DNA of 64,000 nucleotides from Chrysophaeum taylorii (taxonomy: Eukaryota > Sar > Pelagophyceae > Pelagomonadales > Pelagomonadaceae). Of this stretch, positions 12,026 to 64,000 are shown piece after piece (the first letter of the stretch is position 1; each line of letters begins with the position of its first letter). Below the pieces are notes generated by a model, which was not told the origin of the DNA, searched no databases, and saw only the letters and a program-made list of their open reading frames with translations. The stretch is taken from contig JAQMWT010000328.1 of NCBI GenBank assembly GCA_029834535.1, positions 1 through 64,000 of the forward strand, read 5' to 3'. The position numbers were made by a program, and so were the translations under genes.

Positions 12026-12062
12026 TGATGATGATGCCACGTGGTGAGAGGTCATCATCATG
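12022..12062. repeat. GAT/ATC inverted microsatellite
   Basis: tgatgatgatgatg at about 12023 is answered by tcatcatcatg at about 12052, giving a possible hairpin between the stop of the upstream ORF and the PPR gene start. It may affect the end of one transcript or the leader of the next (inference). Confidence 0.5.
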
Positions 12063-12091
12063 AGGATTCTGGATTATGCGATTATGACTCG

Positions 12092-33959: not shown

Positions 33960-34045
33960 TTATCAAGTAGTGTCTCCCCCAAGAAATAAAACAACGGAGT
34001 GAAATAAATGGTCAACGGAAGCAAGGTGTGAATCACTCTCGTGCG

Positions 34046-43633: not shown

Positions 43634-46600
43634 TCAGGCGGAGGAGCGTTTGAGTTGGTCGACGTCCTTTTGGAGGTCCGGGTCGACGAGGAGGCTCTTG
43701 AAGGTCTCGAGTTTGGCCCGGAGGGTCGCCGCTTTGACGAAATCCGCGGCACGGTCTTTGTTGGCGTCGAAATAGTTGGCGACGGCCCGGTCGTCGTTCC
43801 AGTCGTCGCCGAGTTGGTCCTCGAATCCGGTTTCGACCTCCTTTAGGGATTTCTGGAAGGAAAATCCCGTGGCGGCTCGTATCTGCTTGGCGAGGGCGTC
43901 GACCGCGAGGCGGCGCTTGGCCCTCCAGTAGAAATAGGAGCGGGCTCGGGCCCACGGGACGACGTCGCGAACGACCCCCTTGGCGAGCATCCTGCCGGCG
44001 CGGTCGTGGAGGTCGGCGAACTCGTGGGCGACCTGGAGGGCGACGGGGGCGAGGGTCTTTTCGCGCCGGGGGTCGTCGGCGAGGGTGGGGTCGAGGCGAC
44101 GCATCAGCGAATCGCGTTCGTTTTCGCGGAACTTGACCTCGCAGACGCCGGGGGGCTCGAGGATGCCGCCGCGCGAATCGGGGTCGGCGTACATTTCCAT
44201 CATGTCGGCGTTGATGGTGGGGTCGACGACGACCCAGGCGCCCCCCCGGAGCTCGCCGTTCGGGGGAATGTAGACGAAGACGGGCCTGTCGTAGTCGGTT
44301 AATGCGTCGACGATCTTGGCGCCAAACTTGAGGACCTCGCCGAACATGTCCCGCGTTCCTCCGGAAAATCCTCGCCAGTTCGCGAGGATCATGAGGGGAA
44401 GATGTTCGCCGCGGTTGAAGTCCTCGATGGCCTGGGCCGTCTTGAAGGCGCTGTCGGGGTACCAGACTTGACCCGCCTGCGGGAGGACGGCCTCGCGCGA
44501 GTCGGGATTCGCGGGATCGGCGGGCACAACAGCCTCGACGGTGCGGGTTTCGACCGCGATGACGCCAAAGGGAATACCTCCCAACCGCGCGCGGCCAGAC
44601 ACGACCGTTTTTCCCCAGCCGGCCAGAGACTCCTGGAAAGAACCCGCGTCGAAGAGGCCGTCGACGCCGTTGTCCAGAACCTCGCGGACGTCGTAGGGCG
44701 TTTTTGTGGGGCGCGCCTTGACCTCGCGGTCGACGGGGTCGACTTGCGGCAACAGAAAGGCCGTGTCCGAGGTGGTTTTCGAACAATCCTTCGGGACGAA
44801 CGAGAGCCAGTCGACGATCGCGCGACATCCCTCGTAGTCGTCGTCGACCACGCGGTGCGTGATGCCGTTGGGGACCATGATCTGGGGACCGCCGAGCTGG
44901 TCCTGCGAGGTATAGACCTGCTTTCCCAGCAGTTTGTTGAGGGCCGAATACCCCGTTAGGATCACGGGTCCCTGGCGCATCTGGATGACCCTCTGGCCGA
45001 GGCGGACGAGGTAGGCTCCGATGCCGACCGAGCGGCCCGTGACGTACGAGAGCGTGAAGGTATCTTTGTAGGCGCGGCTCGTGACGCCCGCGATCATGCC
45101 CGAGCCCCTCAAATTCTCGACGCCGATGCCGTCGGGGACCTGGTCGCCCGCGCCGACGATGGCGTCGATTTCGTGGACGCCGGCTTCGTTCAACGGTTTC
45201 GCGACCACCGATCCTTCGGGCAGCGCCGCGAGCTGGTCGGGGGTGAGGTAGAGGTACTCCAAGCCAGAACTCGGGTTGGAGTCGTCCACCCACTTGACGC
45301 CGACCACGTCCTTCAACGCGTCGACGAGACCGATTCTCGCCCCCGAATTCGAAGACACGTAGACGCGGGGAATCCCTTTTTCGGCGGCATAATTCGAAAC
45401 TTTGGCGAAAAATTCGTCCTCGGCGACCCCAAAAGAGCCCGACTTGTAGGTGACGTCGTTGGCGATCAACACGACCTCGCGGCCTTCTGGGTATTCGGGG
45501 GTTTTGAAAGTGCACAACCACGCGACCATCCCGACGTCGTTCGTGCCGACCGACCTCGTCGCCTTCGTGGACACAACCCCATCCTCCGACGACACCAGCA
45601 GCAGCTCCTTGGCCTCGAGGATGTCGTCGACCGCCGGAACCGCCACATCAGCAGCAGCAGCAGCTCTTTCGCGCCACGCGGCGAGCGTCGCGGTCGCGAG
45701 GAGGCCGACGAAGTCGTAGGCGTAGGTCGTTCCGACGCGGCGGGCCGCCGCTCTCTTCTTGGCGACGACGTCCGCCGACGCGTAGGGATCGACCACGCAG
45801 TTCGTGCCCTCGAGGTCGCAGTAGCCCGTCACGCTGCCCGTGATTTTGTCGGACTGCTCGACGTACGACTGGAGACGGAGCCACGGTCCGTCGGCCGAGG
45901 TCGCGACCCCCCGCACCGTCGTCAGCGGCGTCTGGGGCGGAAGCGGCGAGGTCCGTATTTCCAGGGGCCCGCTTTTGCTGTCGTCGACGTAGAATTTCAC
46001 CGATATCTCGTCGACGCGCGACGCGAGGAGTCTTTTCGCTCGAGACGCGACGAGGCCGCCAACGATATCCTTGAACGCGGCGTCGAGATCGGATATTCTG
46101 CCCGAAACCGGCGGGATCACGGTCAAATACAAACTGGCGCTCGAGGTTGGCTTGACCCGAGAGTCGAGCATGGCCATCTCTAGCGCATCGAGGGCTTTGT
46201 CGAAGAGTCTCTCGGCTCCCGCGTCGGCGAGGTCGGTCGAGTGCGTGACGCGACGTACGAAGACGGTCTGCGACGCGGCGCGCGGATTTTTGGGGTTTTT
46301 TTCGTCCCCGATATACACCCGGAGGTCGCGGTTGACGGTCGCGAGGGGGGTGAGAGCAAAATGCTGGGAGATCGCGTCGAGCTCGAGGAGATGGTAGAAC
46401 GTGGGCCGCATCATCCTCCGGAGCGGATCTTCCTCGAGCGCGTTCGATTCGTTCGCGACAAACGTAAACGACCGCGGATAATACGGGGCTTCGGCCGCGA
46501 TCACGTTGATCGACCTGAGCCGGCAATCTGCGACGAGACTCTTGGTCTCGGGGGCTTCGAGCGCCTTCTCCACTTCGGCCGCGAAGCTCGCGTCCTCGGT

Positions 46601-49600
46601 CGCGTCCGTAATAGCGCCTCGCTTCAGGAGAACGTGCAACGTGTTGACGGCCGGACCGTCTTTTCCTAATTTTTTATTAGCGCAGTCCTCCTTGTAGGCC
46701 GGGAGAATGGTCTTGGGGAGCGCATCCAACGCTCCCTCCAAGTCGTCGGCCGACTCGCGAATTACCAACTTTCCGAATCGAAGCGGCGCGTTCTCGGGAT
46801 CTTCGTCGCGGAATTTGTACCACCATCTCGCTTCCCGGTCGTCGCCAACCTCGACCTCCAACATGTCGTGGGCCGAGTACATGCGACGCACATACACCTC
46901 GAGCGCGGCTTTCGAGATCTCCTCGTCCTCGTCGTCGAAGAGGTACGTCAGCATGTCCACGCCCCGCTGGAAGCTTCCGAGTTCGGGTCTCGTCGCGAAG
47001 GCCTGGAGATCGGATTCGGAATTTTTTAAGTCCTCGCGGAGCGACGCGACGCGGTCCGCGAAGGGCGGCACGGCCGACTCCAATCTCGCCATGCCGGCCG
47101 CCAGCGACACCGAAGCGTAGGACGGACCCGCGACTTCGAGCGCGGCGACGCGGTCCAGCCGGTTCTCGAGCCGCGCCTTGCGCTCGTCCGAGATATCCTC
47201 CGTACTCTCGAAGAGCGGCTCCAACGACGGCAGCGCCTTCACCAAGGCGAGCACGACACCGCACCTTCTCTGGAGCTTGGCGTGCGCGAGGAGATTGTCG
47301 GCGGCGACGCTCGGGGAGCTCGCGGCCTTGACCAACTCTCGAATCGCCGCGTCTTCGTTCTCGCGACCGACGAACTTTTCCTCGACCGCGAGGAAGTTCC
47401 CGAGGAGAGACGCGACCGTGTCGACGGCGACGCCGAGGGGGCCGTCGCTCCACGCGTCCACCACACCGCGGAGCGGCGCGAGGGCCGCCGGGTCGTCTTC
47501 GTACTCTCGAAGCAGCGCGTCGAGGTCAGACGCGGTCGCGTCTTCGGGCAGCGAGACGAGCGCGGCGTCGAGGGCCGCGGGCATCTTCTGGCCGATCGCC
47601 CCGGCCGTCTCGCGCGCCACGAGCTTCACGAGCTTGTTGGTCGCCAGGGCGTCGATCATCGCGGTCACAGCGTTCTCCGGCGATGACGACGACGACGACG
47701 ACGACGATGATTCCTCTTCGCCGCGAAACGCGTCCCAGCCGTCCAACGCCGTCGCGAGCTTCTCCGACGCCGCCTCGTAGTTCCGGAGGGGTTCGTCCTC
47801 GAGCGACGGCGCGTCGACAGCCCCCGCGACCTCGAAGGCCGCCCCCTCGAACCTCGTGATTTTCGTCGCTTTGGACGGATCGGCGAGGTCGAGGCGGGCG
47901 AGCAAATCCCCGGATTCGACGACGGTTCCGGCCCCGACGTTGTGCCGCAGCGTCCCCGTCTCGGCCGCGCGCAGCGGCATGATCATCTTCATCGCCTCGA
48001 CCTCGGCGAACGGGACGCCCGCCTTGACGTCTTCGCCGTCATCCACCAACCACCGCACGACCTTGCCCGTCACGTCCGACCTCACCTCGGACGGATCGAA
48101 GACCGTCGGCAAGAAAATCGTCGCGCCGTCCACGTTCAGCCGGAGCCCGAGCGGCTCTTCGAATCCCGTCAACTGCAACGACCTCCCCCCCAAAGACGCG
48201 AGGAGCGTGCCGTCGGGCCGCTCGCGCGCCGTAGCCTCGAAGGTCGCGTCGCCGATCGTCGTCAAAAAGCTCGCCTCGCCCGTGCGCGCGACGCGAATCT
48301 CGTACTTGACGTCGTTCAGCACGACCTCGACGTCAAACTCGTCGACCTCGAATTCCGAGGTCGCGAACTGGCCCTTCCCGATCGCTGCCTCGAACGCAAG
48401 CTTGGCGCTCTTGCACTTCTCGAAGGACCGGAACAACGCCGCGGCCGCGACGACGAGCTCGTCGTCGATCCGAGGCAAAATCGCCTTTTGCTTCAACAAC
48501 CCGTCCAACCACGACGTGTCGATGTTGTTGCTCTTGAAGTCGTCCGTTTCCAGAAGCTGCACCAAATACTCGACGGGGTTCCGGATTTCGCCCCGTACGG
48601 TCAACTCCTTGAGCGCCAACACCATCGCCTTGCGCGCCTCCTCCCTGTTGGTTCCCGACGCGAAGAGGTGACCGAACTGCGAGTCGGCGAACTCGTGGAC
48701 GCCGCCGTTCGCGCCCACGCTAAAGTATCCCCAGACCGACGGCGTGCTCTGGAAGGCAACCCGTTCGATCCTGCCCGACGTCGGCTTGAACCCCTCGTCC
48801 GGGTTTTCGGCGGTGATCCGGGCGGCCAAGACGTGCCGATTTTTCGGGAGTTCGTACGGCAGATCCAAATTCACCTCGACGCTCAGATCGTCGCGGGGCG
48901 CGCCGTACAGATTACGGATCTCCGGAACGTTCGAGAGCGGCACCCCCATCCCGACCTGGAGCTGGGTGGCAGGCATATTCACCCCCGTAATCCCCTCGGT
49001 CACGGGGTGTTCGACCTGGAGTCGCGGGTTGAGCTCGAGGAAAAAATAATCGTCGGTCTTCGCGTCGTACAAATACTCGACCGTTCCAGCCCCGACGTAC
49101 CCGATCGACTTCACGAGCTCGCGCGCTTTTTGCTCCATGTCTGCGAAAACGTCCGCGCGCGCGATACCCCCCGTCGGATCCGTCGGAGGACCTTCCTCGA
49201 AGATCTTCTGGAATCTGCGCTGCGTCGAGCAGTCGCGCCCATTCAACGCGATCGCGTTCCCGTGCTCGTCCCCGACAACCTGGACCTCGAGGTGCCGCGC
49301 CCCCGTCATCAGCTGCATCACAAATATCGGCGACCCGGGAACCTCGTTGGCGACCACTTGGTAGTTGGCCGCGAGCTCCGCCTCGTCCTCGTTCATCCGA
49401 ATTCCCTTCCCGCCTCCGCCCTCCGACGCCTTGAGCATCACGGGATATCCCACGCGCTTCGCCGCCATAACCGCCTCCTCGACCGAATGCACGCACGCCT
49501 TCTGAAACACCTTCTCCGGAATCGTCCCGTCCTCGGCGAGCCGAGCCTTCAGCGGCCCGTCGTTCTCCTCGTCGCCGAAAGAACCGCTCCAGGGAATCGA

Positions 49601-50242
49601 CGGCACGCCCGCCGTCTGCGCCAAGATGTTGGCCGCGATCTTGTCCCCCAGCACGGACATCACGGGAGCGGGCGGACCCAAAAACGCAATCCCCGCAGCC
49701 TTCAACGCCCGCGGCAGCTTCGGGTTCTCCGAAGCGTGGCCCCATCCGGGCCAGACGCCGTCGACGGCCAACCGCCTCGCGACGTCCACGATCAGCTTCA
49801 CGTTCGCGTAGTTGTTGGCGTTCGACCCCCCCGGCACATCAACATACTCGTCGGCGAGCCGGACAAACTCCGCGTTCGCATTCAGGTCTTCGGGCGTCGC
49901 CATCACCGCGAAAGAAACCGCCTTCTCGTCCCCTAACTCGAGGTACGCCCACCGCCGCATCGACATGATCGCCTTCGTCGCCGCCATGCCGTTGTTCGCG
50001 ATCAACACCTTCCGGATCGGCCTCGTCCCGCCGCGCTCCTTGACGTACTTCGACACCACGTCACCTGCCTCTTCCAACGGCGCCGCCGGCACGGGCGCGT
50101 CCTGCAGCGCCGACATCATCACCACAGGCGGGCTCACCCATCTCGTGTGGCGGCTTGCCGGCGTCGTCGTCGTCGCCGCGAAGAAGGCTGGTCCCCCGGA
50201 CAACGAAAACCCCCAGGCGCCCACCGCCAACCACAGCATCAT
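43634..50242 (-). CDS. ACC: Homomeric acetyl-CoA carboxylase, plastid-targeted
   Basis: A 2,202-residue intronless enzyme that converts acetyl-CoA, bicarbonate and ATP to malonyl-CoA, the committed step of fatty-acid synthesis. Domains in order: biotin carboxylase (about 50-560, with ATP-grasp loop ASEGGGGKGIRMN and FFLELNPRLQVEHPVTEGIT); biotin carrier with VEAMKMIMP, its Lys at about residue 750; the ACC central region (about 800-1500); and carboxyltransferase (about 1530-2130, SSNSGARIGLVDAL and LNKLLGKQVYTSQDQLGGP). The N terminus, MMLWLAVGAWGFSLSGGPAFF, is a signal peptide followed by Phe after GPA, resembling the ASAFAP signal of heterokont complex plastids; plastid location is therefore inferred. 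Family length (2,000-2,300) is matched. An acidic Ser tract coded by a GAC repeat lies between carrier and central parts. Many long antisense frames here are GC-bias shadows. Confidence 0.97.
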   Translation of the reverse strand: MMLWLAVGAWGFSLSGGPAFFAATTTTPASRHTRWVSPPVVMMSALQDAPVPAAPLEEAGDVVSKYVKERGGTRPIRKVLIANNGMAATKAIMSMRRWAYLELGDEKAVSFAVMATPEDLNANAEFVRLADEYVDVPGGSNANNYANVKLIVDVARRLAVDGVWPGWGHASENPKLPRALKAAGIAFLGPPAPVMSVLGDKIAANILAQTAGVPSIPWSGSFGDEENDGPLKARLAEDGTIPEKVFQKACVHSVEEAVMAAKRVGYPVMLKASEGGGGKGIRMNEDEAELAANYQVVANEVPGSPIFVMQLMTGARHLEVQVVGDEHGNAIALNGRDCSTQRRFQKIFEEGPPTDPTGGIARADVFADMEQKARELVKSIGYVGAGTVEYLYDAKTDDYFFLELNPRLQVEHPVTEGITGVNMPATQLQVGMGVPLSNVPEIRNLYGAPRDDLSVEVNLDLPYELPKNRHVLAARITAENPDEGFKPTSGRIERVAFQSTPSVWGYFSVGANGGVHEFADSQFGHLFASGTNREEARKAMVLALKELTVRGEIRNPVEYLVQLLETDDFKSNNIDTSWLDGLLKQKAILPRIDDELVVAAAALFRSFEKCKSAKLAFEAAIGKGQFATSEFEVDEFDVEVVLNDVKYEIRVARTGEASFLTTIGDATFEATARERPDGTLLASLGGRSLQLTGFEEPLGLRLNVDGATIFLPTVFDPSEVRSDVTGKVVRWLVDDGEDVKAGVPFAEVEAMKMIMPLRAAETGTLRHNVGAGTVVESGDLLARLDLADPSKATKITRFEGAAFEVAGAVDAPSLEDEPLRNYEAASEKLATALDGWDAFRGEEESSSSSSSSSSPENAVTAMIDALATNKLVKLVARETAGAIGQKMPAALDAALVSLPEDATASDLDALLREYEDDPAALAPLRGVVDAWSDGPLGVAVDTVASLLGNFLAVEEKFVGRENEDAAIRELVKAASSPSVAADNLLAHAKLQRRCGVVLALVKALPSLEPLFESTEDISDERKARLENRLDRVAALEVAGPSYASVSLAAGMARLESAVPPFADRVASLREDLKNSESDLQAFATRPELGSFQRGVDMLTYLFDDEDEEISKAALEVYVRRMYSAHDMLEVEVGDDREARWWYKFRDEDPENAPLRFGKLVIRESADDLEGALDALPKTILPAYKEDCANKKLGKDGPAVNTLHVLLKRGAITDATEDASFAAEVEKALEAPETKSLVADCRLRSINVIAAEAPYYPRSFTFVANESNALEEDPLRRMMRPTFYHLLELDAISQHFALTPLATVNRDLRVYIGDEKNPKNPRAASQTVFVRRVTHSTDLADAGAERLFDKALDALEMAMLDSRVKPTSSASLYLTVIPPVSGRISDLDAAFKDIVGGLVASRAKRLLASRVDEISVKFYVDDSKSGPLEIRTSPLPPQTPLTTVRGVATSADGPWLRLQSYVEQSDKITGSVTGYCDLEGTNCVVDPYASADVVAKKRAAARRVGTTYAYDFVGLLATATLAAWRERAAAAADVAVPAVDDILEAKELLLVSSEDGVVSTKATRSVGTNDVGMVAWLCTFKTPEYPEGREVVLIANDVTYKSGSFGVAEDEFFAKVSNYAAEKGIPRVYVSSNSGARIGLVDALKDVVGVKWVDDSNPSSGLEYLYLTPDQLAALPEGSVVAKPLNEAGVHEIDAIVGAGDQVPDGIGVENLRGSGMIAGVTSRAYKDTFTLSYVTGRSVGIGAYLVRLGQRVIQMRQGPVILTGYSALNKLLGKQVYTSQDQLGGPQIMVPNGITHRVVDDDYEGCRAIVDWLSFVPKDCSKTTSDTAFLLPQVDPVDREVKARPTKTPYDVREVLDNGVDGLFDAGSFQESLAGWGKTVVSGRARLGGIPFGVIAVETRTVEAVVPADPANPDSREAVLPQAGQVWYPDSAFKTAQAIEDFNRGEHLPLMILANWRGFSGGTRDMFGEVLKFGAKIVDALTDYDRPVFVYIPPNGELRGGAWVVVDPTINADMMEMYADPDSRGGILEPPGVCEVKFRENERDSLMRRLDPTLADDPRREKTLAPVALQVAHEFADLHDRAGRMLAKGVVRDVVPWARARSYFYWRAKRRLAVDALAKQIRAATGFSFQKSLKEVETGFEDQLGDDWNDDRAVANYFDANKDRAADFVKAATLRAKLETFKSLLVDPDLQKDVDQLKRSSA

Positions 50243-50860
50243 CGCCGATCTCTCCTTGTCGTCGTAGAGGATCCGAAGCGTCTCTCGGCTGACGCGCGTA
50301 CGCCCTTCAAGTCAGTCGACGATCTCTCGCTTCTGATGCCCCCCTTCCGGGGATTCGCGCGGAACCCATTGGGACACGCCTTTTCAAACAACACTATCTT
50401 CTCCTCCATACATATATCTTCTATCTATTCCTCAATTCAAAACAAAACAACGGGTTCTTATGCGACTATTTTCTCTATGTATGCACTGTTTTGTGTTCGG
50501 CCAGAAGAACAACTAACTACAAGATGCCCGCCCGCCCGCCCCAAAAAAGGAACCCCTTCCTTTTCCTCTTCCACCTGGACCTGGGGGGTTCGTTCCTTCG
50601 TTCGTTCGTTCCTTGATGGATGTGTACGAAGCAACAAAGGTTCTGGTCGACTTGTCGTCGTCGTCGTGCACCAGCGAGCGTCGTGGTAAATTGATGGCGG
50701 AAGAGCGGCGGCTTGAGGGAGGGAGGAAGGGAGGGAGGATGCACGGGAAGGTGGTTTTTTGTTTAATTAAGCGTCGGCTGATCGACGGGATGCTCTGGCA
50801 GCCGAGGCCGCCTCCTCGACATTCATTCAGACTTTCTGCGTTGCTCTTTGGCATTCTTGC
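50243..50860. other. ACCase upstream region; no gene seen
   Basis: Contains AT-rich sequence near 50400-50510, a (TTCG)n run (ttcgttcgttcgttcc, about 50596) and a GGGAGGAA-type purine repeat at about 50715. It would hold the ACCase promoter and, on the minus strand, the sequence downstream of the Fanzor relic. Confidence 0.5.
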
Positions 50861-50879
50861 GACGTAGGGGTCGATAAGT

Positions 50880-53800
50880 GTTTCCCAACGCCCTTGTTCC
50901 TATTCACGTCGTCGACGTATGATTCGTCGCCAAAAGCCGTCGCCACCAGCGCGTAGTCGGTGTCGTGGGATTGTGGTCGCTGGGTGTTCGACCAGCGTCG
51001 ACGCGTGCTGCTGTGTCTGCGAAAGGATGAGCACGTCGTCGCGTCGATGATTATCACGTGGTGGCACGACGTGCAGTAGGAAGTGCCGCGTGCCCTCCGC
51101 GACGACCCGTGGACGTCCTGCTTCACATTTCCAATCCTAACAGCAGGTCCAGTTGGTCCGGTATTCGTCGGTGAAATGCGGACGAGAGGTTGTCGCGCTT
51201 GCTTGGTGACCTCCTTGGCCACCCGACTTTTTTCGGGCGCGCTGTCAACGCCGATTTTTTTGATTGCTTGCTTCGGTCCGACGAAAAACTTCGCGTCGCC
51301 GTCTTTCCCGCATTCCCGACGGCGCGAAGCGGTTTGCCACACCCGCCCGCGACGACTGCTCGCGCTGGATCAGCGCCATGCGCTGGCGCTTGCACCTGTT
51401 GCTGTTCTCGATCATGTTGCCTCGGTCGTGGTGGTTCCCGAGGTACGTCTCGAGCGCGTCGATCACATCCTCCTTTGTCCGGGGGTTGCGGCGCCGCTCG
51501 TCGTCGAGTCCTTGAACTCCCTCTTTCCGAGATTCGTTCTCCCTTGCCCAACGGCTGTTGCGCCTCCGCCCAGCGGCTGTTGCGCCTCCGGACGTGATTC
51601 TCGATCCGAGCTTTGCTGCGCACGTCTCGCCCGCAACGTCGTCCACAACGCGCCCGCGGGTCAAGTCGGCGGAAGTGCGAGCGTACGCGTCGCGATCGAC
51701 GTCCTTCGGCTCGATCCTTTTCGTGGAGACGCGGCGCATGTTTCGTGTTGAGCTCCCAATCGGCTCGCAGGACGACACCCGCGGCCTTTTTGCCGCGATC
51801 GACCACGCGCATGCAGACGGTGTACTTGATCCCCGGATCAATCGACCCGAAGATGTCGCTGTCGTCGAGGTTCAAGCCGCCGTCGCCGTCCGCTTCCGGC
51901 GGTGGCTCTTCGGGCGGCCGGGGTCGCACGGGCGGCTGGAGCAGCGGGCGGCCGGGGTCGCACGGGCGGCTGGAGCAGCGGGCGTCCCAAAAACAGCGGG
52001 CGTTGCTCTGACAGTCGCTCCACGAGCAACTGGTGTTGCGCGAGTTTCGCGCGCATCGGCGTTCTTTCGCCCGCTCGAGGAGGAATCTCGGGCTCGCCGG
52101 CGTCGACGTGCGTGTCGTCCACAGCTTCTGCTGCCTGCTCGGGCTTTTCTTCGACGGCGACCGCCTTTTTTTCGTCGTTGACCGCGCGCCCGTCGTCGCT
52201 CTCTTGGTCGCCGCTCTCCTGCCCAACGCGACAACAACGATCCCTCCGACAACCGACGGGGATCCGGATGCCGATGCCGTCCGCGAAGAAAATCTTCTTC
52301 GTAGTCGTCGGCGCACGGTTCGGGAACTTGTGTGCCTTCCGTAGGTCGTACAGGTCGTCGACGCCAACGGTCGGAAGCGAGTCGACATCTATGCCCAACC
52401 AACTCACTATAAACCGTAATGGCGTCGGTAACGGGCATCTTTGTGCCTTCTCATGAGCGGAAACAGGGCGCCCGGGTCGTACGCCTTGGCGATGACCACC
52501 GGATCGTTGGCCGGATCGTCGCCCGCACCGCCCGCCGTCGCCTCGAGATTGCTGTCGCCTAACCTATACACTCTCGAGGGTCGCCTTAATTTTTTGCCGC
52601 AGTAACCGCTCGAGGTGTTCTTTTCGGCCTTTAACACCTTTGCCGAGTTTTTTGTTTCTCGTCGCGGCTCGCTTTTCCTCGTGGTATGTTCGATCGCGTA
52701 GAGCTTAACGACGAACTCGTAGAGCGGCGAAAGGGCAACATGCCCGTAGTCGCGCTTGTCGGGGTCCGTCCCACGAGGCATGCTCGGCAAACATTCGCGC
52801 CTGCCTGCTCGTAGCTCACGGGCTTCTTGCCAGCGAGCTTCGTTGGCACGTCGTAGGGGGTCGGCGAATCCCTCTCTCGGTTTTTTTTTGGGGATACCCA
52901 AGCGGACCTGCCTCCAGCCTTTCTCGTCGTAGTCCAATGCGTAGCTTTTGCGCCTTGCAACGAGTTCTCGTGCACCACTTGTGCCGGATAATCGATCTCC
53001 GGTTGCGTCATGAATCGAAAGTGCGCGACGCGCTCGTGGTAGTCGTGCACCACCACCGCCTGTTTTTGGTTTTGCGCCACACCGACCTCGGCGTCGATGG
53101 CCGCAAAAAAAGTCCATCTGCGCTTCCGCAGCGCACGCCATGAGCGCGTCGAAGGTCGTCGAGCTCGCGTCAACAACAGACTTGACGACTTCGACCGTGC
53201 CTTGGGATAAATAAAGACGCGTGAAGTACTCGTGCTGTTACGGTCGAACGCGGCATCGAGGGCCCAGCATGCCTCGACGTGCGCACGTGGCGTCGAATAT
53301 TTCGAATCCGCGTTGTTGTCGACATCCGCCAGCACGTCGTCGTATGCGAGGGCATGCATGGCGATGTTTCGCCGAGTGTGCGAGAGGTGGACCAACGAAT
53401 TCAGCCCAGACGCACCTGTGATTGATACCTAAGGAGGATGTTCTTCGTGTTTTTGGCCTGCATATCGGCGATGAAGTCGTTTTGTTTTTCTGCTCGAGAA
53501 TGTCTAGTCTTTCTTGGTCGCCGCCGCGCTGTTCTTCAGCTCTCTATTCCTCCTCGTCGTACTCCTCGTCGGCGAGTTCGGTCTCCGCGAACGATCCTAA
53601 GTGCTCGTCGTCGTTCTCCCCTATAGTAAAATTGGGCAATCCGCGTTGCTGGCGCAGCGCGTAGATCTTCTTCTCCCAGCGGCGAGGTGGGACCGGAACT
53701 TTCGGCAACTCGTGCTTCTTTTGCGCGTCCCGTATTGTCTGCGTGAGGTTGAGACCATCTCATAAATGACGAGCTCCGTAACGTTGGGAGCGAGTGAATC

Positions 53801-53955
53801 GATGAGCAGGGCAGCCCGCGTCCTCAGTTTTCGAAAGCATGCCGTTCTCGTGCACGTCTTACCCTGATCGCCGACTGCGGTTGCGATGGAGGACGGTGCC
53901 TCATGAATCCTGAGCCTTGCGAGGGCATCCGCCCTCCCGGCGTAGGTTGGCACCT
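50880..53955 (-). pseudogene. Fanzor (eukaryotic TnpB-like RNA-guided nuclease) relic
   Basis: Minus-strand coding signal jumps between frames, but its order matches Fanzor. N-terminal helical parts come first (ARRWEKKIYALRQQ-like region at about 53.7 kb; RRNIAMHALAYDDVLADVDN at about 53.35 kb; KGWRQVRLGIPKKK). KKIFFADGIGIRIP resembles the usual TDG strand. GSIDPGIKYTVCMR gives the RuvC-I Asp (codon 51837-51839). Then ECGKDGDAKFFVGPKQ and APEKSRVAKEVTK, followed by TDEYRTNWTCC with the RuvC-II Glu (51164-51166) in the family's DEYRTS..C block. After one more frame change YCTSCHHVIIIDATTC supplies a CxxC and the RuvC-III Asp (51043-51045). All three acidic residues survive but at least five frameshifts break the gene. 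Fanzors use an RNA guide from the element end; none was identified. Confidence 0.72.
51903..51979. repeat. Tandem duplication inside the Fanzor relic
   Basis: A ~39-base GC-rich unit (gggcggccggggtcgcacgg ... ctggagcagc) occurs twice in a row. A similar smaller duplication, cggctgttgcgcctccg, lies at 51553-51590. Both lie in linkers, one between the TDG and DPG blocks, and probably arose by slippage. Confidence 0.8.
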
Positions 53956-54209
53956 ATTCGCCTCCCGGGCGGGCCGGTTGGCAGCCGGAACGTTCGCAGT
54001 GGGACGGGGTATGGCCGGGGGGCGAACACGGAAGGTTATCGACGAGCTGTTGGTTGTCAGTCACATCACGGTCTCCTCGTCGCATGGCGACAAGCTTGAT
54101 GGTCACTCTCCGCCGACCGACCTTTCGGCGCTCCTCGTCTACAGGCCCGTGATTCCGGACTGGCTCCTGTCGGTCCGGCCTGTGGCTCCCATGCTCGGGA
54201 GAGGTCTGA

Positions 54210-54246
<37 letters not shown>
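53925..54246 (+). mobile_element. Copy 2 of the (TTAG)n-tailed dispersed repeat
   Basis: Encodes LFASRAGRLAAGTFAVGRG (compare LASRAGRLAPGKSALGWGS at the 60-kb copy) and then IDELLVVSHITVSSSHGD. The end shares the phrase ggctcccatgctcgggagag with copies 1 and 3, and finishes in about nine TTAG units (54212-54246). It abuts the start of the Fanzor relic and is followed at once by the copia relic. Confidence 0.65.
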
Positions 54247-54249
54247 TAT

Positions 54250-55878
54250 AGAGGCACGTCGCATCGTATGTGCAGCACACAATGAGGTCTCACAATATGG
54301 TTTTATGGATGACGGCAGCGTTGTTTCTACACATTTTTTACGCGAAGCTTTAGCTCGCACAAATCCCGAGCGCCCTTGATGGCTTAACGCCATCATTGCC
54401 AAAGAATATTACACTTTAGGTCGCCGTGGGATGTTGCTCGCGTTGGACCAAATATCTGCACCTTATATTAAAGTGGATCTTACGCACAAAATATGAATCA
54501 GGCCGTTTCAAATCCTACAAAGCGCGCGCCTTGTCGTTAGGGGCTGTACGCAAATTCGCGGTGTAGATTTTTTTGTGACACCTTTAGTCCCGTCGTGAAC
54601 ATTGTTAGTATACGCTTTTTCTTGACTTATGTTGCTGTTCACTATTGGGATCGGAATAAACTTGATGCGAAAACCTATGCTTTCATTCAAGCACCATTTG
54701 CAGAGGATATTTGTGTGTGTGGTCACCTGAAGGATATTCGCCTGCACAACCGGCTCGAAAATCCTGTACTAACTTAAGCGCTCCTGGTATGGTTGCAAGC
54801 AAGCTTGTCGCCGCAACTGGTGGATGCACCTAACCGAAGGATTCCTTGTTAGCGATAGTGGGTGGTACTCGAGGATCTGGCGACACGTGCCTTTGCAAGC
54901 TGACTATCAATGGCACAGATTGTCTTCCGCCTTGTTTTAGTTGTCGATGGCCTACTTGTCGCTCATCCTCGTTCTGTCTTGGCAAATATCATGCTTTTAT
55001 TGGTCGGTTCAAGGCCGTCACCGACGTATAATTCAAACCGACGTACAGATTTATGTTGGCCTACGCATCACCCGCGACCGTCCACGTCGCACTCTTGCTA
55101 TCGATCCATCCAACGCGCTTAGTGAACGATGTTTGTCCAGAATTTCACTAAGCCGAAGTCGTCTCCTGATCATAACGGCCTTAGGCTATCTGCCGCAGAC
55201 TGTCCACCAGATGGCACCCCAGATCAAGCTTGCATATTCCTTATCGTCGCATTGTTGGTTGTTTGATTTTCATCTCCGTCATGACACGCCGGGACATTAG
55301 CTCGAATGTAAATCAGATCGCAAGTATCGCTGAATGGCACCACCCAAGATTTAGAGCTCGTTCCTGGCCGAAATTTTGACATTCGTATACACTCAGACTC
55401 TAGTTGGGCCGACAACACTGATGACCGTCATTCCACTTGGTGGCTCTCTTATTGTATACTGCTCTCGCCATTAGTACACTCTGCGCTATGTGCTGCCACT
55501 GCAGAAAGAAACTTTCGAGGCTTCTGAAGCTCGAGAAACTGTCCCCATGTATGTCGATAATCAACAAAAGTCCGCCTTGAATGCATGACGCGTCGTACAC
55601 GTCACATCGACACCCGCCTTTCCAGTGCTGCTGAATATCGTAGAAATCGCATTATGGATCTCCGGCACATCAAACCGCGGGTCGAAAATAATCTTAGTGA
55701 CATTTTTACAAGAAACACACCTGTTCTTTTGGGCCGGCCTTCGCGCTCGCCTCCTTGCTCGCTGAATTCATTCATCACTCCTTATCATGACCCACACACA
55801 TACTCTGCATCTTCATCTCTTTCTCCTTCATTTCGGGGTCCGTTTGACATGACACTTACGCCTGTTCCTACGCATTAA
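54250..55878 (+). pseudogene. Decayed Ty1/copia pol (reverse transcriptase and RNase H)
   Basis: With many frame changes the plus strand reads as copia pol. RT start: LREALARTNPERP, then KSYKARLVVRGCTQIRGVDF across a frame change. NIVSIRFFLTYVAVHYWDRN and KLDAKTYAFIQAPFAEDI are the central RT strands. The YGLKQ block is WYGCKQACRRNWWMHL and the active-site strand is VVDGLLVAHPRSVLANIMLL. KAVTD ... YVGLRITRDRPRRTLAIDPSN follows. RNase H: HSDSSWADNTDDRHSTWW, then TRRTRHIDTRL and IMDLRHIKPRVENNLSDIFT. Gag, protease and integrase are missing, and no LTR was found, so this is a truncated relic. Confidence 0.85.
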
Positions 55879-56132
55879 GACCAAGAAGGTAAAAAAAAAG
55901 AGAAAACAGGCATAATAATTCTCTGGAACCGGCAGGAACCCGGTTTCTTCTCGAGAATGATGCTCACACGAACGTCGTATTCCCCCTTCCCAAAGCTAGC
56001 ACCCCATGGTGGTTTGATGATGTCCCCCAGGCTCTTTAAAAAAAAATCGGATAAGGAGCAGGATAAAAAGGGTGCGGTGTGATAACTTGTGCTTGGTTTG
56101 AATCAAGATAAAGGTGGTTGAGGAGAAAATTC

Positions 56133-56648
56133 CTAGGCCCAGTCGTCCCCGCCAGAATCGTCGTCGCCCCAGCCCGAGTCCGAGCCCCCCCACTGGTACT
56201 GGTCCTCTTGCGGCTGCTGCTGCTGCTGGTAGGAGTCGACGGGCGGCGCGACGGGGACCTCCGGCTCGGAGGAGCCGCCGCCCCAGCCGCCGAAGAGCGA
56301 TCCGACGGCCATTCTGGCGATCGAGGACCCGGCGCCGAACGCCATACCCTCGGCCATCGTCGCCATGAGCCCCCCACCTTGCTGCGGGGGCTGCGCGGGC
56401 TGCTGCTGCTGCGGCGGGGGCGCAACAGCCGAAGGTCCGTTGGGCTTGGGCGCTCCGAGTATTGTCGTCTCATTGGTTGTCGTATTCCACCAGTAACTCT
56501 GGCCCGACTGCGGGTCTTTCACCTCTTGCCAGGGGTCGGGGGCGGGCGCTACCGCCGAGGCCGGTGGGCCGCGCTGCCGGAGGCCGCGAACGACGGGTGC
56601 GCCGCGAACTACACGTCCGCGAAGGAGGAGAACGCTGCTGCGGTACAT
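56133..56648 (-). CDS. Mitochondrial WW-domain protein with CHCHD-like hydrophobic segment
   Basis: A 171-residue protein. The N terminus, MYRSSVLLLRGRVVRGAPVV, is Arg-rich without acidic residues, like a mitochondrial presequence. Residues about 37-68 form a WW domain (DPWQEVKDPQSGQSYWWN, then TTTNETTILGAP), which binds Pro-rich ligands. A Pro/Gln linker leads to GGLMATMAEGMAFGAGSSIA, resembling the conserved hydrophobic helix of CHCHD2/CHCHD10 proteins, but no CX9C motifs follow. The C terminus is Gln/Gly/Asp-rich with repeats of GW/DW. The mitochondrial role is inferred. ATG 56648 is the first Met and gives the leader. Confidence 0.75.
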   Translation of the reverse strand: MYRSSVLLLRGRVVRGAPVVRGLRQRGPPASAVAPAPDPWQEVKDPQSGQSYWWNTTTNETTILGAPKPNGPSAVAPPPQQQQPAQPPQQGGGLMATMAEGMAFGAGSSIARMAVGSLFGGWGGGSSEPEVPVAPPVDSYQQQQQPQEDQYQWGGSDSGWGDDDSGGDDWA

Positions 56649-56782
56649 TCTTCCCTTCGACGAGAAAGAGCCGTTAAGGCATACGTTGAGAAAGAATGAA
56701 GCGGCAGGGATCTGAACTTCGTACCGTACCTAAAATAATATGGTATCAAAGGTCAGGGTTTAGTTTTAGTATTTTAGTACAT

Positions 56783-56833
56783 GTTTTAAACCGGTTTTAA
56801 ACCGGATTTAACTCGGATTTTACCGGTTTAAAC
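56783..56833. repeat. AT-rich inverted repeat around AAACCGG
   Basis: gttttaaaccgg is repeated directly and answered by ccggtttaaac 30 bases on, giving a foldable cluster between the WW gene and the hAT fragment. Confidence 0.7.
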
Positions 56834-56999
56834 ATCTTCTCGCAAACGCTCAGAAAAAAAATCGTTGCAGGACGTCCGTTCGTGGTCAGGGAGCATTTTC
56901 TCTTCCAGTTCTCTTCTTATGTGCCACGCGCTCGCTGCCTCCTGTCGAAGTTGCACACCACGCTGGTGACCGTTATGGTGACCATGTTCAAGGGGGGAC

Positions 57000-57633
57000 G
57001 GCCCAGGGTTCGGTGAGCGACTACGTGATCACAACGCCTAAGGGCGACGGCACGTTCGAATGGAGATGATGTGCGGGCACGCGGCTGCACGCACGCACGC
57101 ACGCACGGGCAAAAAGTTCAAGCCAACTCAATCGGTTGAGCACATCGTCCTGGACTGCAATCACACACCCGATGGCGTTAAGTGCACGCTCGCGAGCAAG
57201 TCGTCTGATAAGAATATCTCGGGGTCTGTATGCCCACGAATAAAAAAGCGGCCCGCCGCTGTCCACGACCTTCGCGCCTCGACAGCGACATCGTCCGCGC
57301 GCCTTCGTTGTTGCCGGAGACTGGGACGGCTCCGTCGCAAGTCGTGTCGAAGCAAGCTAGAGTCAAGGAAGTCACACCCTTTTCTTCATCGATATGATCA
57401 AGGCGCTCAACGCGGCCTACGTCAAGCACTTGCCCAAGTCCGAGGCCTTTCGGCGCACGTGGGCGCCACGAGTTTTTGAAGAGACTGTACAGAACATCAA
57501 CAAGATGTGGTTCGCCACCGGCAACTTCGCTCGAACCATTGGGTTCGACGGCTTCAAGACCGAGGCCGGTGCTCAACTCGTCGTCAGCACGAAGAGTGTA
57601 CACAGTGAGCTGACGTGGCGGTTCGAAACCTAA
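57000..57633 (+). pseudogene. N-terminal fragment of a second hAT-type transposase
   Basis: The frame at 57060 reads SVEHIVLDCNHTPDGVKCTL, resembling the H...C part of a BED finger and the linker after it. In another frame from 57381, FFIDMIKALNAAYVKHLPKS followed by TIGFDGFKTEAGAQLVV matches the DUF659-type start of hAT transposases (F-x-x-x-I-x-x-L-N-x-x-Y-x-P-S ... DGW). The catalytic and dimerisation parts are missing. An ATG at 57394 opens an 79-codon frame but it is not an independent gene. Confidence 0.5.
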
Positions 57634-57879
57634 ACCCCCCAAATTAGTGTGTCGGTTTTTTACCAAAAAAAAAACCAAAAAAAACCTGGTTAAAACTACA
57701 ACTTGTACCCCCGTAAAAAACCGAGAGGTGCGGTAGACCAGAAGGTTGAAATTCAACTAGGTAGCCAAAGAGTTGATTGCGAGACCGCGAGAAGGTTGAA
57801 ATTAAACGAGAAGAAAAAGGCGGTGAAACACAAAGGACCTCGTCTCCAAAGGCCGAGATCAGAAGAACTACTAGCCAAG

Positions 57880-58953
57880 ATGATCCTGCTGCTGGTTCCT
57901 GCCCTCGTTCAGCCCACCATCGCAATTTTTCTACGCAAGGAGATACGATCGCTGTCAACCGATGAGTTTTACGAGTGGAGCACAGCGCTTCACAAATTTC
58001 GTGACGACAAGATTCCTGATTTTACGTTCCCGAATATCCAGACGATTACGGCCTTTCACGCGGCTGCGACTTTGAACGAGACCTACGATCAAGCGCACCA
58101 GGGTGCAAACTTTATTCCGCTGCACGCGTTATTGATCCGAGCGTTCGAGATGGGGCTGCAGTACTGGTATCCAAACGCGAGCAGCATTTACTGGGACTGG
58201 TCCAACGATCCGAGCGCTATCTTCACGCCCGAGTTGATGGGCGAGTACGACGAGTCGGCGGGAGTGATTCTCAATGGCCCCCTCGCCAACTATCCGGTGG
58301 GATACGTCGCGGAAGTGGCGAACGAAGACTTTCTAGGGTGGGTGCCCGAGAACCAGACTGTGCTTCGCCACGAGTCGCTCCCGCTGAACAAGGAGATCGT
58401 GGGCCGCGTCGCGAATCAGACTATGTATTACGATCCACCGGCGACTGCCGAGATGGTCGAAGCGTGCGGAAACACGACCTCGTTCCGCGATTTTTGGTGC
58501 TGCGTCTTTTATGTTGAAGATGCGCGGGATTCCTGCAACTCTACCAACGACTCTAGCGAAAGCCGCATTCACGGTCTCGTGCACGGGTGGTATTCTGGCT
58601 ACGCGACCGTCGGAGATTCGCTAGTGAGATTCGACGGCGCCGACCTCGCCACTTCCCCAAATGACCCTATCTTTTTCCTTCACCACACCAACATCGAGCG
58701 CTTCTGGCAGGCCTGGGCCGTTAAGACGGGCCGGTTTATGGCAACCATCGCGGATCCTTGCGGCGGATATGATGAGGAAACACCCGCAGGCCATGGCATC
58801 CGCGAGCCATTTTACCCCAAAATCGACATGGTTGACGCCGCGACCAACGAAATTCTTCCCGACGGGGCCGACGGTATACCCGACACGCCATATGTCGTCT
58901 GTGGAGCTCTCTACGCCAACCCTCCCTATGAGTACGATACCTACCCCTTCTAG
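57880..58953 (+). CDS. Secreted tyrosinase (type-3 copper oxidase)
   Basis: A 357-residue single-exon enzyme, likely oxidising phenols to quinones with a binuclear copper centre. The start MILLLVPALVQPTIAI is a probable signal peptide. CuA ligands: His60 (TAFHAAATL), His73 (YDQAHQGANF) and His82 (FIPLHALLIRAFE), followed by YWDWSND, a family hallmark. CuB ligands: the two His in RIHGLVHGWYSG and the HH of SPNDPIFFLHHTNIERFWQ. Cys pairs (FWCCVFYVEDARDSC) and N-glycosylation sequons (NQT, NTT, NDSS) suit a secreted protein. ATG 57880 is chosen for the signal peptide; the frame is open 59 codons upstream in a Lys/Arg-rich stretch. It could act in pigment, wall or defence chemistry. It lies alone between transposon remnants and AT-rich DNA. 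Confidence 0.9.
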   Translation: MILLLVPALVQPTIAIFLRKEIRSLSTDEFYEWSTALHKFRDDKIPDFTFPNIQTITAFHAAATLNETYDQAHQGANFIPLHALLIRAFEMGLQYWYPNASSIYWDWSNDPSAIFTPELMGEYDESAGVILNGPLANYPVGYVAEVANEDFLGWVPENQTVLRHESLPLNKEIVGRVANQTMYYDPPATAEMVEACGNTTSFRDFWCCVFYVEDARDSCNSTNDSSESRIHGLVHGWYSGYATVGDSLVRFDGADLATSPNDPIFFLHHTNIERFWQAWAVKTGRFMATIADPCGGYDEETPAGHGIREPFYPKIDMVDAATNEILPDGADGIPDTPYVVCGALYANPPYEYDTYPF

Positions 58954-59330
58954 TTCGCGTCGTCGAAACCCAGACCATCCCCGAGCATTTCCTGCTGATG
59001 ATCATTTCCTGCTTCTCCATTCGCTCTCCGCTCCTAGCTCACTTTTTCTGGGTGTTCCGCTCACTTTTTCTAGGTGTTCCGATACTAAGGCCCGTTCTGT
59101 GCTGAGCAAAAGTGGGCCAAAAAAACAAAGTTGTCCAAAAGGTTATCAATCCTTTGGTTGAAAAACTAGCCCTCTCTTAGAGATCTTCGGGTGATAATGC
59201 GGGTGATTAATGGTCAGTCTCCCGTATTTTCTTTTTTTAGTTCAAACAGAAAGAAAGAAGATAAAGAAAAAAAATAAGCCGTAAGTAACTTGCTTCAAAG
59301 AGAAATTACCTATAGGACGCAAGACTCCTC
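58954..59330. other. No gene seen
   Basis: Contains a 22-base tandem duplication (ctcactttttctgggtgttc, about 59037-59080) and A/T-rich sequence that may end the tyrosinase transcript. Confidence 0.5.
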
Positions 59331-59490
59331 ATGACGTCTTCCGGTTTTTCTCGCGATGAACCGCGTCGTGGCTCGCCCCTTCGTGGAGAGCGACGGCGGA
59401 CCGCCGCGCGGCCCGGGATGACGAGACAAACCGTCCGGCGCCCGGCGAGGCGAGAGATCGCGCGGGAAAACGAAAGAGGCGCAAGTTCCT

Positions 59491-59995
59491 TTGAAAAGGA
59501 ACTGGTACTCGAGTGTCCTCGCCCAGGAGTGGAATGGCGAAGAGGAAGTGTACAAGCGCGCTGTTGATGCGTTGAAGCGCTTCTGGCCTCTTCGAGACGA
59601 TGGCTTTCTCGAGCGCGAACGTGCTGTTCGTCGCAACAAGATGGGGCGCTTGCGGGCCGCTCGTCGTGAAGCTGTTGCCGCCGGCGACAAGGATGCGGCG
59701 ATGCTGCTTGAGCGTCAACGCGAGGCCAAGCGTATTGCAATTGCACAGCGGCGTGATGATCGTCTAGAAGAAGCGCACGCCGGCGACGAGGACGCGATGC
59801 GCGCGCTCGAGGACGAAGGCGAGAGTGATCGTCTGCGCCACGCCGTATACGGCAATCGTCGTAGTCACCACCAGCGCTCCTCGCCCCCTTCCCCCCTTTC
59901 TAACTTTCATTTTTTTTCCCCCAACCGAAGCCCTGCCGCGTCGGCCCTAACGATTGTCCACGGAACCTACATTTGGGATTTTACGGCATTGCGGC
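59491..59995 (+). CDS. Unknown basic helical protein fragment
   Basis: The frame reads WNGEEEVYKRAVDALKRFWP, then a charged helical stretch (NKMGRLRAARREAVAAGDKD, LLERQREAKRIAIAQRRDD). It has no ATG before 59641 and runs into the (TTAG)-tailed repeat at its 3' end. It may be the remains of a mobile-element protein or of an exon. I do not recognise a family. Confidence 0.3.
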
Positions 59996-60345
59996 ATGTA
60001 ACTAACTTCAGACCTCTCCCGAGCATGGGAGCCAGGCCGGACCGGCAGGAGCCGGTACGGAATCACAGAGGAAAATTCACGCAGTTGGGGCAGAGGCGAG
60101 GGACGAGGACGGACTTGTTGATGGTGGACCGTCACTGCGCGCGGTCTTGTGCGAGGTCGTGCAAAAGCGTCGCAGGCCGCGGACGTGTTGGTCCACGAAC
60201 AATCGACCTGTCCGTCGCGTTCTGCCCAACCGAGCGAACCCCATCCCAGCGCGGACTTTCCGGGTGCTAACCGGCCAGCCCGGGAGGCGAGCAGGCACCG
60301 TCTCACTCCGGGACGGCCGGGGCCGCCGCAGGGAGCAAGCGTGTT
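59996..60345 (-). mobile_element. Copy 3 of the (TTAG)n-tailed dispersed repeat, inverted
   Basis: On the minus strand it runs from about 60345 to 59996 and ends ggtctgaagttagttac. Over about 270 bases (60008-60275) it is nearly identical to 16140-16410 in the other orientation, with a few small deletions (such as gagttcgctc). Only two TTAG units remain in the tail. Confidence 0.7.
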
Positions 60346-60390
60346 AGGCGCCGTCCTCCATCGCAACCAACGGTTAGCGATCGTAGGGTG

Positions 60391-60474
60391 GCGGCATGTA
60401 TTGTTAGATTTAGACGCAGGTTTGGGGGGAGTGTTAGGGGATACTGTGAATAACGTCATCCATCCTTGGACCCT
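60391..60474. repeat. Second copy of the dispersed ~88-bp repeat
   Basis: Reverse complement of 38401-38488 with scattered substitutions. Confidence 0.75.
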
Positions 60475-60805
60475 GTGGTGCGGTTGACACGGTGTCACAA
60501 GCGGCGCAGAGCCCCCCAACCTCGGAGTCAGTGAGGAGACGCGCAGCGCGAATGATATGGAAGAGAGACGCGTAGGCGCGCTAGAGGGGATTGACGCGTT
60601 AGATGACGTCCTCCATCTCTTCCTTAGCCTTCAGAGAACAGTAATCACAACTGTGTTACCCTTCAGCAGAGCGTGAGAACAGGGGTATTCTGTCCTCGAA
60701 TCTGTCTTTAAATGTCAACTGCTAAGAGGGGTGTGTGTGTGGGGAGCATCGAATCTGTCTCTTAATCGAGGACAGCCGGTGTGAATAACGCAGCGTTTTC
60801 TTAAT
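60475..60805. other. No gene; gypsy LTR-edge fragment
   Basis: At 60704-60750 the phrase tctgtctttaaatgtcaact, the purine run aagagggg and tgtgtgtgtggggagcat repeat the junction seen at 9338-9381. The related phrase gaatctgtct occurs again at about 60752. No gene is visible. Confidence 0.6.
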
Positions 60806-60829
60806 CCTAACTACTAATCGACAGATGTT

Positions 60830-60860
<31 letters not shown>

Positions 60861-61866
60861 TTGTCCCTCGATTTAGGGTAAGGATCAGATAGGCGCGAGA
60901 GTAAGCATCAGGTAGGCGCGAGAGCCAGAAAGTGATCCTCCAAGCCGTCTACGGCGACCTCGCAGACTATTTCCACGATCCGCGGCGGCTCTTTCAGCGC
61001 GCCATTCTCACGCCCCGTCGAAACGATGTTGTCGATGCGGACAACGCGCGCATGACCGCGGCCTTTTTTTCCCGGAGACGAGGCGTCGGAGTTCTTTTCG
61101 GCTGACTAGGCTGGGTCGGAAGACGACGCCTCGCTCTTTACAGTAGAGTTTTCAACTCCCTGACAACCAACGGCATGCTGACTTTGATCGCGAGCTTTAT
61201 GTCTTCTCAACCTCGACCCGTCGCACGGCCACTGCAACGGTACCAGATACATGATCGATCGTGTCGTTGTCACCGAGGCTCCTCCAACCTGTATCCCTTA
61301 AGGCCCGCCGACGCCAAACGATCACCAAGAGCCAGGGCCAGACGCCCCGCGAGGTCGGCGTCCTCTTTCCCAAGCCCGTCTTCTGCCACGTCCAGCTCTA
61401 CGTGGCTCTCTGTCGATCGGCAACCCCGAGGATATAATCATCTGGGTCGACGACTCCACCCTACCCCACACGTGCTGCGCAATACCTATAAGCCCCTCCC
61501 GGCGTCTACACGCGCACTGTAGTTGAACTTACTGGGACCAGGTGAACTTACTGGGGTTTGAGATTGGGACTAGGTGAACTAAGTGACCAGGTGAACTTAC
61601 TGGGACCAAGTGAACTTACTGGGGTTTTTAGAGTGAACGCAAGGGCTAGCGGCGTGTACGGATCAAAGCAGCTTAGATTGGCGGAGGTGAGAGCGACGAG
61701 CTCGAAGGAGAGTGGGGTGAGTGGATGTGAGCACGAGTGGGCTTACGCCGAACTTACTGGGGTTAGAGATTGGGACTAGGTGAACTTACTGGGACCAGGT
61801 GAACTTACTGGGGTTAGAGATTGGGACCAGGTGAACTTACTGGCGAACTTACTGGCCTGCACTTGT
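60806..61866 (+). repeat. Tandem unit 1 (1,061 bp) with Helitron helicase end
   Basis: Begins cctaactactaatcgacaga, continues through a (TTTGTCTG)n microsatellite and two gtaggcgcgagag copies, then the helicase remnant, then an array of aggtgaacttactgggacc sub-repeats. Units 2 and 3 repeat the order. Confidence 0.9.
60950..61540 (+). pseudogene. Helitron Rep/helicase C-terminal relic, copy 1
   Basis: Frame-jumping match to the end of Helitron (Pif1-like) helicases: VYGDLADYFHDPRRLFQRAI then LTPRRNDVVDADNARM; FNSLTTNGM; GTRYMIDRVVVTEAP-like text across a frame change; and ITKSQGQTPREVGVL with FCHVQLYVALCRSATP, corresponding to helicase motifs V and VI. Stops interrupt every part, so it is inactive. 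The Rep domain is not in the window. Confidence 0.75.
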
Positions 61867-63750: not shown

Positions 63751-64000
63751 TTAGACTTAAATCAAAAGTGGCAAAGTTAAGTGAACTAACCCTAGAACAG
63801 AGGGTACTAACCCTAGTTCAGATTTTCTACCTCTAGTAGGCTCTACGCCCTCACAGATTGAACGTGGGGAGCGAAATCTGGATCAAACTAAGCGGGAAGC
63901 GTCGTACCATCGACAAGAATGTAGAGAGTGTTCTGGACAGAGTCGTACGGTGGAAGAGTAGCCGAAAGAGCAACTTGATGTGATGAAGTGGAGTGAACGC
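63751..64000. other. No gene seen at the right edge
   Basis: Unique-looking sequence with aaccctag phrases; no frame of interest before the window ends. Confidence 0.5.

Follow-up and report, generated by a model that had tools for sequence, protein, structure and literature searches.

On the minus strand of contig JAQMWT010000328.1 of the pelagophyte Chrysophaeum taylorii, within the window, that is, the whole stretch of 64,000 nucleotides analysed here, lies what is in all likelihood (probability roughly 0.87) a Fanzor1 gene copy, dead and truncated, that derives from a large mobile element of at least 11.8 kb. Fanzor1 proteins are eukaryotic relatives of the CRISPR nucleases. The window copy is a relic that is broken by frameshifts, lacks its start and carries no trace of codon constraint.

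Several landmarks are available for comparison from excerpts of published work. In SpuFz1, the residues E541, D383, N385, and D606 coordinate two magnesium ions (excerpt of PMC10432273). A DPG motif and a Glu located six residues before the first CxxC are described as common to Fanzors and closely related TnpB proteins, and TDG in the WED domain as characteristic of Fanzor1 (excerpts of PMC10711439). Additional conserved Fanzor1 residues, Gly500 and Glu536, were given by Bao and Jurka (excerpt of PMC3627910), and Gly500 would mark the canonical Glu site. According to the same excerpt, Fanzor1 was already listed in the stramenopile algae Nannochloropsis and Ectocarpus.

Extent and Decay of the Window Copy

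In a DNA search of the species' own genome, minus-strand homology to other copies spans window positions 53857-50643. The range 50880..53955, proposed in an earlier sequence-only reading, holds most of the feature, which starts slightly inside it at 53857 and runs beyond it to 50643. The following parts were distinguished, with L034 (on contig C546) denoting a better-preserved copy:

53408..53857, minus strand: ORF1 remnant (C-terminal part of the upstream ORF); matches other copies (query 99-548) and L034 (sense 2968-3445)
50770..53407, minus strand: broken Fanzor1 gene with its start missing, from frameshift-aware alignment
50643..50769, minus strand: 3' noncoding part of the element; homology stops at 50643, short of the common 3' end of the other copies
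51911..51984, minus strand: 34-bp tandem duplication in the linker before DPG, an insertion relative to L034
51546..51590, minus strand: 22-bp tandem duplication, an insertion relative to L034

At the junction 53408/53407, the window lacks about 400 bp that other copies possess, the start of the Fanzor gene included. Frameshift-aware alignment of the natural frames of L034 with the window gave 466 identical residues among 590 aligned in the core, with 18 frameshifts and one stop; the N-terminal part (135/179 identical) contains four frameshifts, and the tail (50/75 identical) two frameshifts and one stop. Given this identity, the order of the motifs described below is not a product of chance. 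Between the core and the N-terminal part, copies differ in the length of a poly-A/poly-C stretch.

The dN/dS ratio between the window and L034 is 1.05 over 362 codons, with 42, 27, and 32 changes at the three codon positions, whereas L034 and a copy on contig C36 (L044), both broken, give 0.54 over 359 codons, a value compatible with selection acting on their ancestors; the range over 12 comparisons is 0.51 to 1.11. The notion that the window copy still yields a protein through splicing or frameshifting, for which the three catalytic residues still encoded might speak, has next to no probability in view of the 18 frameshifts and the stop in the core, the missing start, the loss of the second Cys of the first CxxC, and changes spread over all codon positions at a ratio near unity. 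Most likely, the window copy does nothing as a protein, and its first description as a broken Fanzor relic was essentially right.

Several other features were observed in the window. A repeat of about 98 bp at 53857-53955, found in at least 21 other places at 98-100% identity, abuts the relic, and a multidomain acetyl-CoA carboxylase, whose single open frame of 2202 aa occupies 43634-50242 of the minus strand, adjoins it. The plus strand encodes proteins with a tyrosinase domain (57703-58953), a PPR domain (12041-13918), and a VHS domain with a weak GAT match (34028-34996). Three similar ORFs (MLTL.ASF.SS.PRPVARPL) at 61175-63606, spaced by about 1.03-1.05 kb, form a tandem repeat array, and positions 1-8000 show a strongly negative GC skew (-0.27 to -0.39) across 8 kb, along with numerous open frames on the plus strand.

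Motifs Retained in the Window Copy

The sequence-only reading had listed five strings in order on the minus strand and had remarked that no single frame is long; all five were found in that order, from 52290 down to 51031, and in different frames. Together with two further motifs, they are as follows:

52261..52290, minus strand: WED-domain TDG motif, here ADG (FFADGIGIRI), from a profile block and alignment
51819..51848, minus strand: RuvC-I, GSIDPGIKYT, first catalytic Asp retained, from frame-aware alignment
51283..51300, minus strand: GDAKFF, whose Gly aligns with the Fanzor1 Gly at the canonical RuvC-II Glu site
51140..51172, minus strand: TDEYRTNWTCC, alternative catalytic Glu six residues before the zinc ribbon, from alignment
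51061..51078, minus strand: YCTSCH, second CxxC of the zinc ribbon, from alignment
51031..51078, minus strand: YCTSCHHVIIIDATTC, the fifth string, found as first given
51029..51049, minus strand: RuvC-III, HRRDDVL, third catalytic Asp, in the frame kept by other copies, from alignment

The FADG string is the TDG motif in which the Thr has changed, and the first CxxC of the zinc ribbon, just after TDEYRTNWTCC, lacks its second Cys. Codons for Asp, Glu, and Asp had been reported as preserved, and all three residues are indeed encoded, but the RuvC-III Asp was put on the wrong codon. The string IIIDATTC belongs to another frame; the frame of the other copies reads HRRDVLA, to which HRRDDVL corresponds in the window, with two adjacent Asp codons located 5 and 8 nt past the Asp first chosen. 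The Glu of TDEYRTN, proposed as catalytic, stands at the alternative position specific to Fanzor and not at the canonical RuvC-II Glu site, so that this residue had been chosen correctly. Calculated from coordinates, 224 codons separate the first Asp from this Glu, as had been claimed, and 42 or 43 separate the Glu from the last Asp, compared with the claimed 40 or so. The Glu of IIENS was also considered as a catalytic residue and was dropped, SpuFz1 using E541 (excerpt of PMC10432273).

Copies Elsewhere in the Genome

The genome searched comprises 70.8 Mb in 697 contigs. DNA copies at 77-79% identity occur on C55, C245, C398, C546, C563, C54, C267, C538, C443, C110, C317, and C393, with further matches at 72% on C481, two at 67% on C36, and shorter ones, counts to be taken as minima, 40 of 1,224 candidates having been scored. 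At the protein level, a search with the 681-aa frame of L034 returned 71 matches, some of which belong to a second family (family B, as distinct from family A, to which the window copy belongs). Intact relatives had been suggested as possible elsewhere in the genome; relatives are present, and none of those read is fully intact. L034, the sole copy open across the whole 681-aa query, changes frame upstream of it and near the end. The two copies on C36 (L044 and L045), which lie in opposite orientation about 27 kb apart and are 99.7% identical over 9.5 kb, represent either an inverted duplication of recent date or an artefact of assembly.

In an alignment of 12 sequences (the window and 11 loci) to L034 as reference, the landmark residues are largely retained. 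The RuvC-I Asp is found in 10 of the 11 sequences with a letter at this position, the window included (Asn in L042; none in L046), and the whole DPG in 7 of 11 aligned sequences as well as in the reference. The canonical RuvC-II Glu site is occupied by Gly in 11/12, the alternative Glu is present in all nine sequences with a letter (L042 has a gap; L044 and L045 do not cover it), and the RuvC-III Asp in all eight (gaps in L042 and L046; L044 and L045 again not covering it). One or more Cys residues of the zinc ribbon are missing from the window copy, L038, L032, and L042. A DG-containing pattern, which matched 11 of 19 sequences scanned, read TDG in 10 and ADG in the window, and frame-aware alignment placed Asn at the Asp of TDG in L044 and L045.

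The signature E-x6-CxxC-x19-CxxC-x6-D occurs in the natural frames of seven family loci, two of which (L034 and L039) have the whole form preceded by DPG-x(216-219)-E. Elsewhere in 451,258 six-frame residues, the short form gave one unrelated match (in L032), and the signature appeared in none of 200,000 shuffles of the 681-aa ORF. The stricter published expression, DPGx(120-160)Ex6CxxCx(12-18)CxxCx(4-8)D (excerpt of PMC10711439), does not match these sequences, in which the corresponding spacings are 216-219 and 19; because, according to that excerpt, it served to find prokaryotic relatives of TnpB, it was not taken as defining Fanzor1. The D-X(125,275) spacing of Bao and Jurka (excerpt of PMC3627910) agrees with that found here, where their [TS]-[TS] is represented by S-N or T-N.

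The Carrier Element

The copies share a sharp common 3' end at about L034 sense 6642-6645, and sequence from the last 156 bp is present at 26 places, including the window. Similarity extends further upstream on eight contigs (C538, C317, C46, C398, C546, C460, C55, and C481); on C546 the matches cover, with gaps, positions 167554 to 179419, giving an element of at least about 11.8-11.9 kb with its 5' end lying beyond. Along this element, a long upstream ORF (ORF1) is followed by the Fanzor gene, which is the 3'-most gene. ORF1 is open over 1192 aa in L031 (sense 3-3578; L031:6423-9998:-), has no Pfam match above the cut-off (best E 0.035) and no PDB match at E <= 1, and conveys an impression, and only that, of resembling ubiquitin proteases.

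Over the part of the element compared, at least 11.8 kb, no transposase was recognised, and the element could be placed in no class. Neither KDZ nor tyrosine-recombinase domains gave a match, a negative of little weight for KDZ, which registered in no control either. As regards terminal inverted repeats, no contig contained an opposite-strand match to the last 156 bp, a search that would miss short repeats. Helitron-like Rep (PF14214) matched 41 times in the genome, and several of these matches sit within long open frames; none lies on the eight contigs with long copies, where the 5' end of the element is beyond the sequence read, and on C268 and C6 a 3'-end piece and a Rep match are both present, about 135 kb apart. 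Among the matches listed in the literature on Fanzor in stramenopiles, pelagophytes, haptophytes, Guillardia theta, and algae, no report names the element.

Two further arrangements were observed. At C177:20806-22869, two 3' ends of the element lie in the same orientation 1.9 kb apart, and at C154:70324-70620 a 3'-end piece directly adjoins a far-upstream piece, resembling a derivative with an internal deletion.

A Second Family in the Same Genome

Family B was found in two ways, by a PF07282 search and by the protein search with L034, at C314:785341-786060, C409:29664-30368, C40, C29, C350, C586, C671, and C242. It was read as 240 aa, a portion outside the TDG and DPG parts, represented by L049, which is part of C314. 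The sequences on C409, C40, C29, and C350 are 91-94% identical to L049, and the main matched piece is stop-free in C314, C409, and C350, which makes family B better suited to studies of guide RNA and cleavage. The idea that family B is younger than family A was dropped, the copies of family A being about as alike among themselves.

Against PF07282, L049 scored E 2.2e-4 (21.8 bits, below the curated cut-off of 26.3), and with a Fanzor1 HMM it was the best of 2,221 ORFs (E 5e-5); its match to GtFz1 (E 0.09) ranked behind two cytochromes c and a dehydrogenase subunit. The two families match each other at E 1.6e-6, and at 7.5e-11 in the opposite direction. At the RuvC-III Asp position, L049 has Glu (GRERTATLNI), as seen in the one copy read.

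Relationship to Fanzor1 and TnpB

The Fanzor1 reference set consisted of SpuFz1, PpFz1, and GtFz1 (Bao and Jurka 2013; Saito et al. 2023), to which L186, a protein from a pattern scan of viral contigs, was added to make a profile of four proteins; its PDB matches to PpFz1 (4.4e-35), SpuFz1 (2.8e-34), and GtFz1 (4.9e-23) identify L186 as a Fanzor1. Two collinear profile blocks were obtained against these four proteins, at E 1.5e-5 and 0.0054. The scores were 50.6 for the block comprising the alternative Glu, the ribbon, and RD, 31.8 for the TDG block, and 17.5 for a weak third block, also collinear; in 100 column shuffles, the best match reached at most 22.4 and the second at most 16.6, and the profile in reverse scored 15.1. 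Because L049 is one of the rows aligned, family B contributed to the Glu-ribbon-RD block; the TDG block comes from family A alone, as L049 stops short of TDG. The N-terminal third had no match to Fanzor1 (E 0.7).

When families A and B were compared jointly with Fanzor1, the score was 47.0 (probability 84.5; E 6.9e-6 for one comparison; 60 shuffles <=12.5), with the Gly and the alternative Glu in register. The same alignment scored 49.8, slightly higher, against 40 canonical TnpB proteins, and family A alone 34.3 against TnpB (shuffles <=14.3) compared with 22.1 against Fanzor1 (60 shuffles <=14.7). Therefore, membership in the TnpB superfamily is the safer statement, and placement in Fanzor1 rests on the landmarks. 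These scores would favour a protein of the wider TnpB/Fanzor2 group rather than Fanzor1 proper, a reading considered unlikely: the TnpB profile is deeper, which raises its score, the TDG motif that is characteristic of Fanzor1 (excerpt of PMC10711439) aligns with Fanzor1 at 31.8, and, by an expression of our own, the alternative Glu occurs in only 1/95 TnpB-like ORFs examined, which is also the only one with DPG.

Direct searches gave weak matches or none. Family A alone, against the four-sequence Fanzor1 HMM, reached a best E of 1.6, below three unrelated ORFs (0.077 to 1.2); L034 had no significant match to PF07282 in Pfam (E 3); and PDB searches with L034 or A2 returned no Fanzor. The L034 core, searched against a protein database, yielded 2,900 candidates, none at E <= 1, and viral Fanzor1 as a query found nothing in this genome. 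No match came from scans of viral contigs with A2, L049, the pro-Fanzor-like L107, or a piece of GtFz1, L186 found only itself, L049 had no match in phages, and three proteins searched against NCBIfam had no TnpB match. With the L79 piece, 56 viral loci were retrieved together with the 80 best among 346 from prokaryotes, most of them canonical TnpB.

In a PDB profile search with A5, the mitoribosomal zinc-finger protein mS66 (E 0.003) ranked above TnpB (E 0.6), and the modelled C-terminus resembles generic zinc ribbons. Both observations could be taken to indicate an unrelated zinc-ribbon protein of a mobile element in which the RuvC motifs are coincidental, but the mS66 match is restricted to the surroundings of a single CxxC; RD, TDG, DPG, and a Glu at constant spacing follow the order seen in Fanzor; and shuffles reproduced neither the signature nor the scores of the two best profile blocks, so this explanation appears very improbable. 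Fanzor1 identity is thus supported, at the level of sequence comparison, by collinear profile matches, by the TDG/DPG/alternative-Glu arrangement, and by the second family, direct single-sequence searches not being significant.

The 3' End, Structure Models, and Possible Activity

A conserved RNA at the 3' ends, suggested in the sequence-only reading, was looked for and found no support: the last 138 bp of one copy fold little better than shuffles (z -0.70), the 3' noncoding part of nine aligned copies is not more conserved than the coding part, with the last 60 bp the most variable, and Rfam had no match in window 50000-64000, results compatible with the presence as well as with the absence of an omega-RNA. 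The structure models were poor (mean pLDDT 34.2 and 55.4) because the alignment depth was too low, and fold searches with the second model listed no RuvC nuclease and, for the C-terminus, mostly generic zinc ribbons.

In all likelihood, the gene once travelled as the 3'-most gene of the large mobile element. By analogy with characterised Fanzor1 proteins, the protein of its living ancestor presumably bound an omega-RNA and cleaved double-stranded DNA through a RuvC triad made up of Asp (IDPG), Glu (DEYR), and Asp (RRD), an activity that probably served to keep or copy the element at its site.

Comparison with Known Systems

Families A and B are in all likelihood additional members of Fanzor1, a kind already known. 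They extend it to sequences that ordinary single-sequence searches miss, and the family may therefore be under-counted in such genomes. A bolder reading, possible yet on balance doubtful, is that both families make up a distinct and strongly diverged branch of Fanzor1, carried by large elements of a class not yet described whose giant ORF has no recognised fold, and that family B, with Glu at RuvC-III in the one copy read, may be a still living variant of the catalytic triad.

In comparison with TnpB and the Cas12f1-like TNB domain (PF07282), the zinc ribbon is likewise followed by the RuvC-III Asp, whereas Gly replaces the canonical RuvC-II Glu, and DPG stands where D(L/V/F)G is usual in the TnpB proteins fetched. 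The carrier recalls MCi-2 and CMe-1A (excerpt of PMC3627910), in which Fanzor1 likewise resides in an element without an assignable class or recognisable terminal inverted repeats, and differs from them, as far as that excerpt describes them, in its length of at least 11.8 kb, its long upstream ORF without detected relatives, and its host. Unlike GtFz1, which has Asn at RuvC-III, or proteins with the usual Asp, family B has Glu in L049. In contrast to known Fanzor1 proteins, these sequences are too diverged for single-sequence matches and have a longer, low-complexity linker between TDG and DPG. As in Fanzor1, family A is carried by a mobile element and combines TDG, DPG, Gly at the canonical Glu site, an alternative Glu before the C4 ribbon, and RD.
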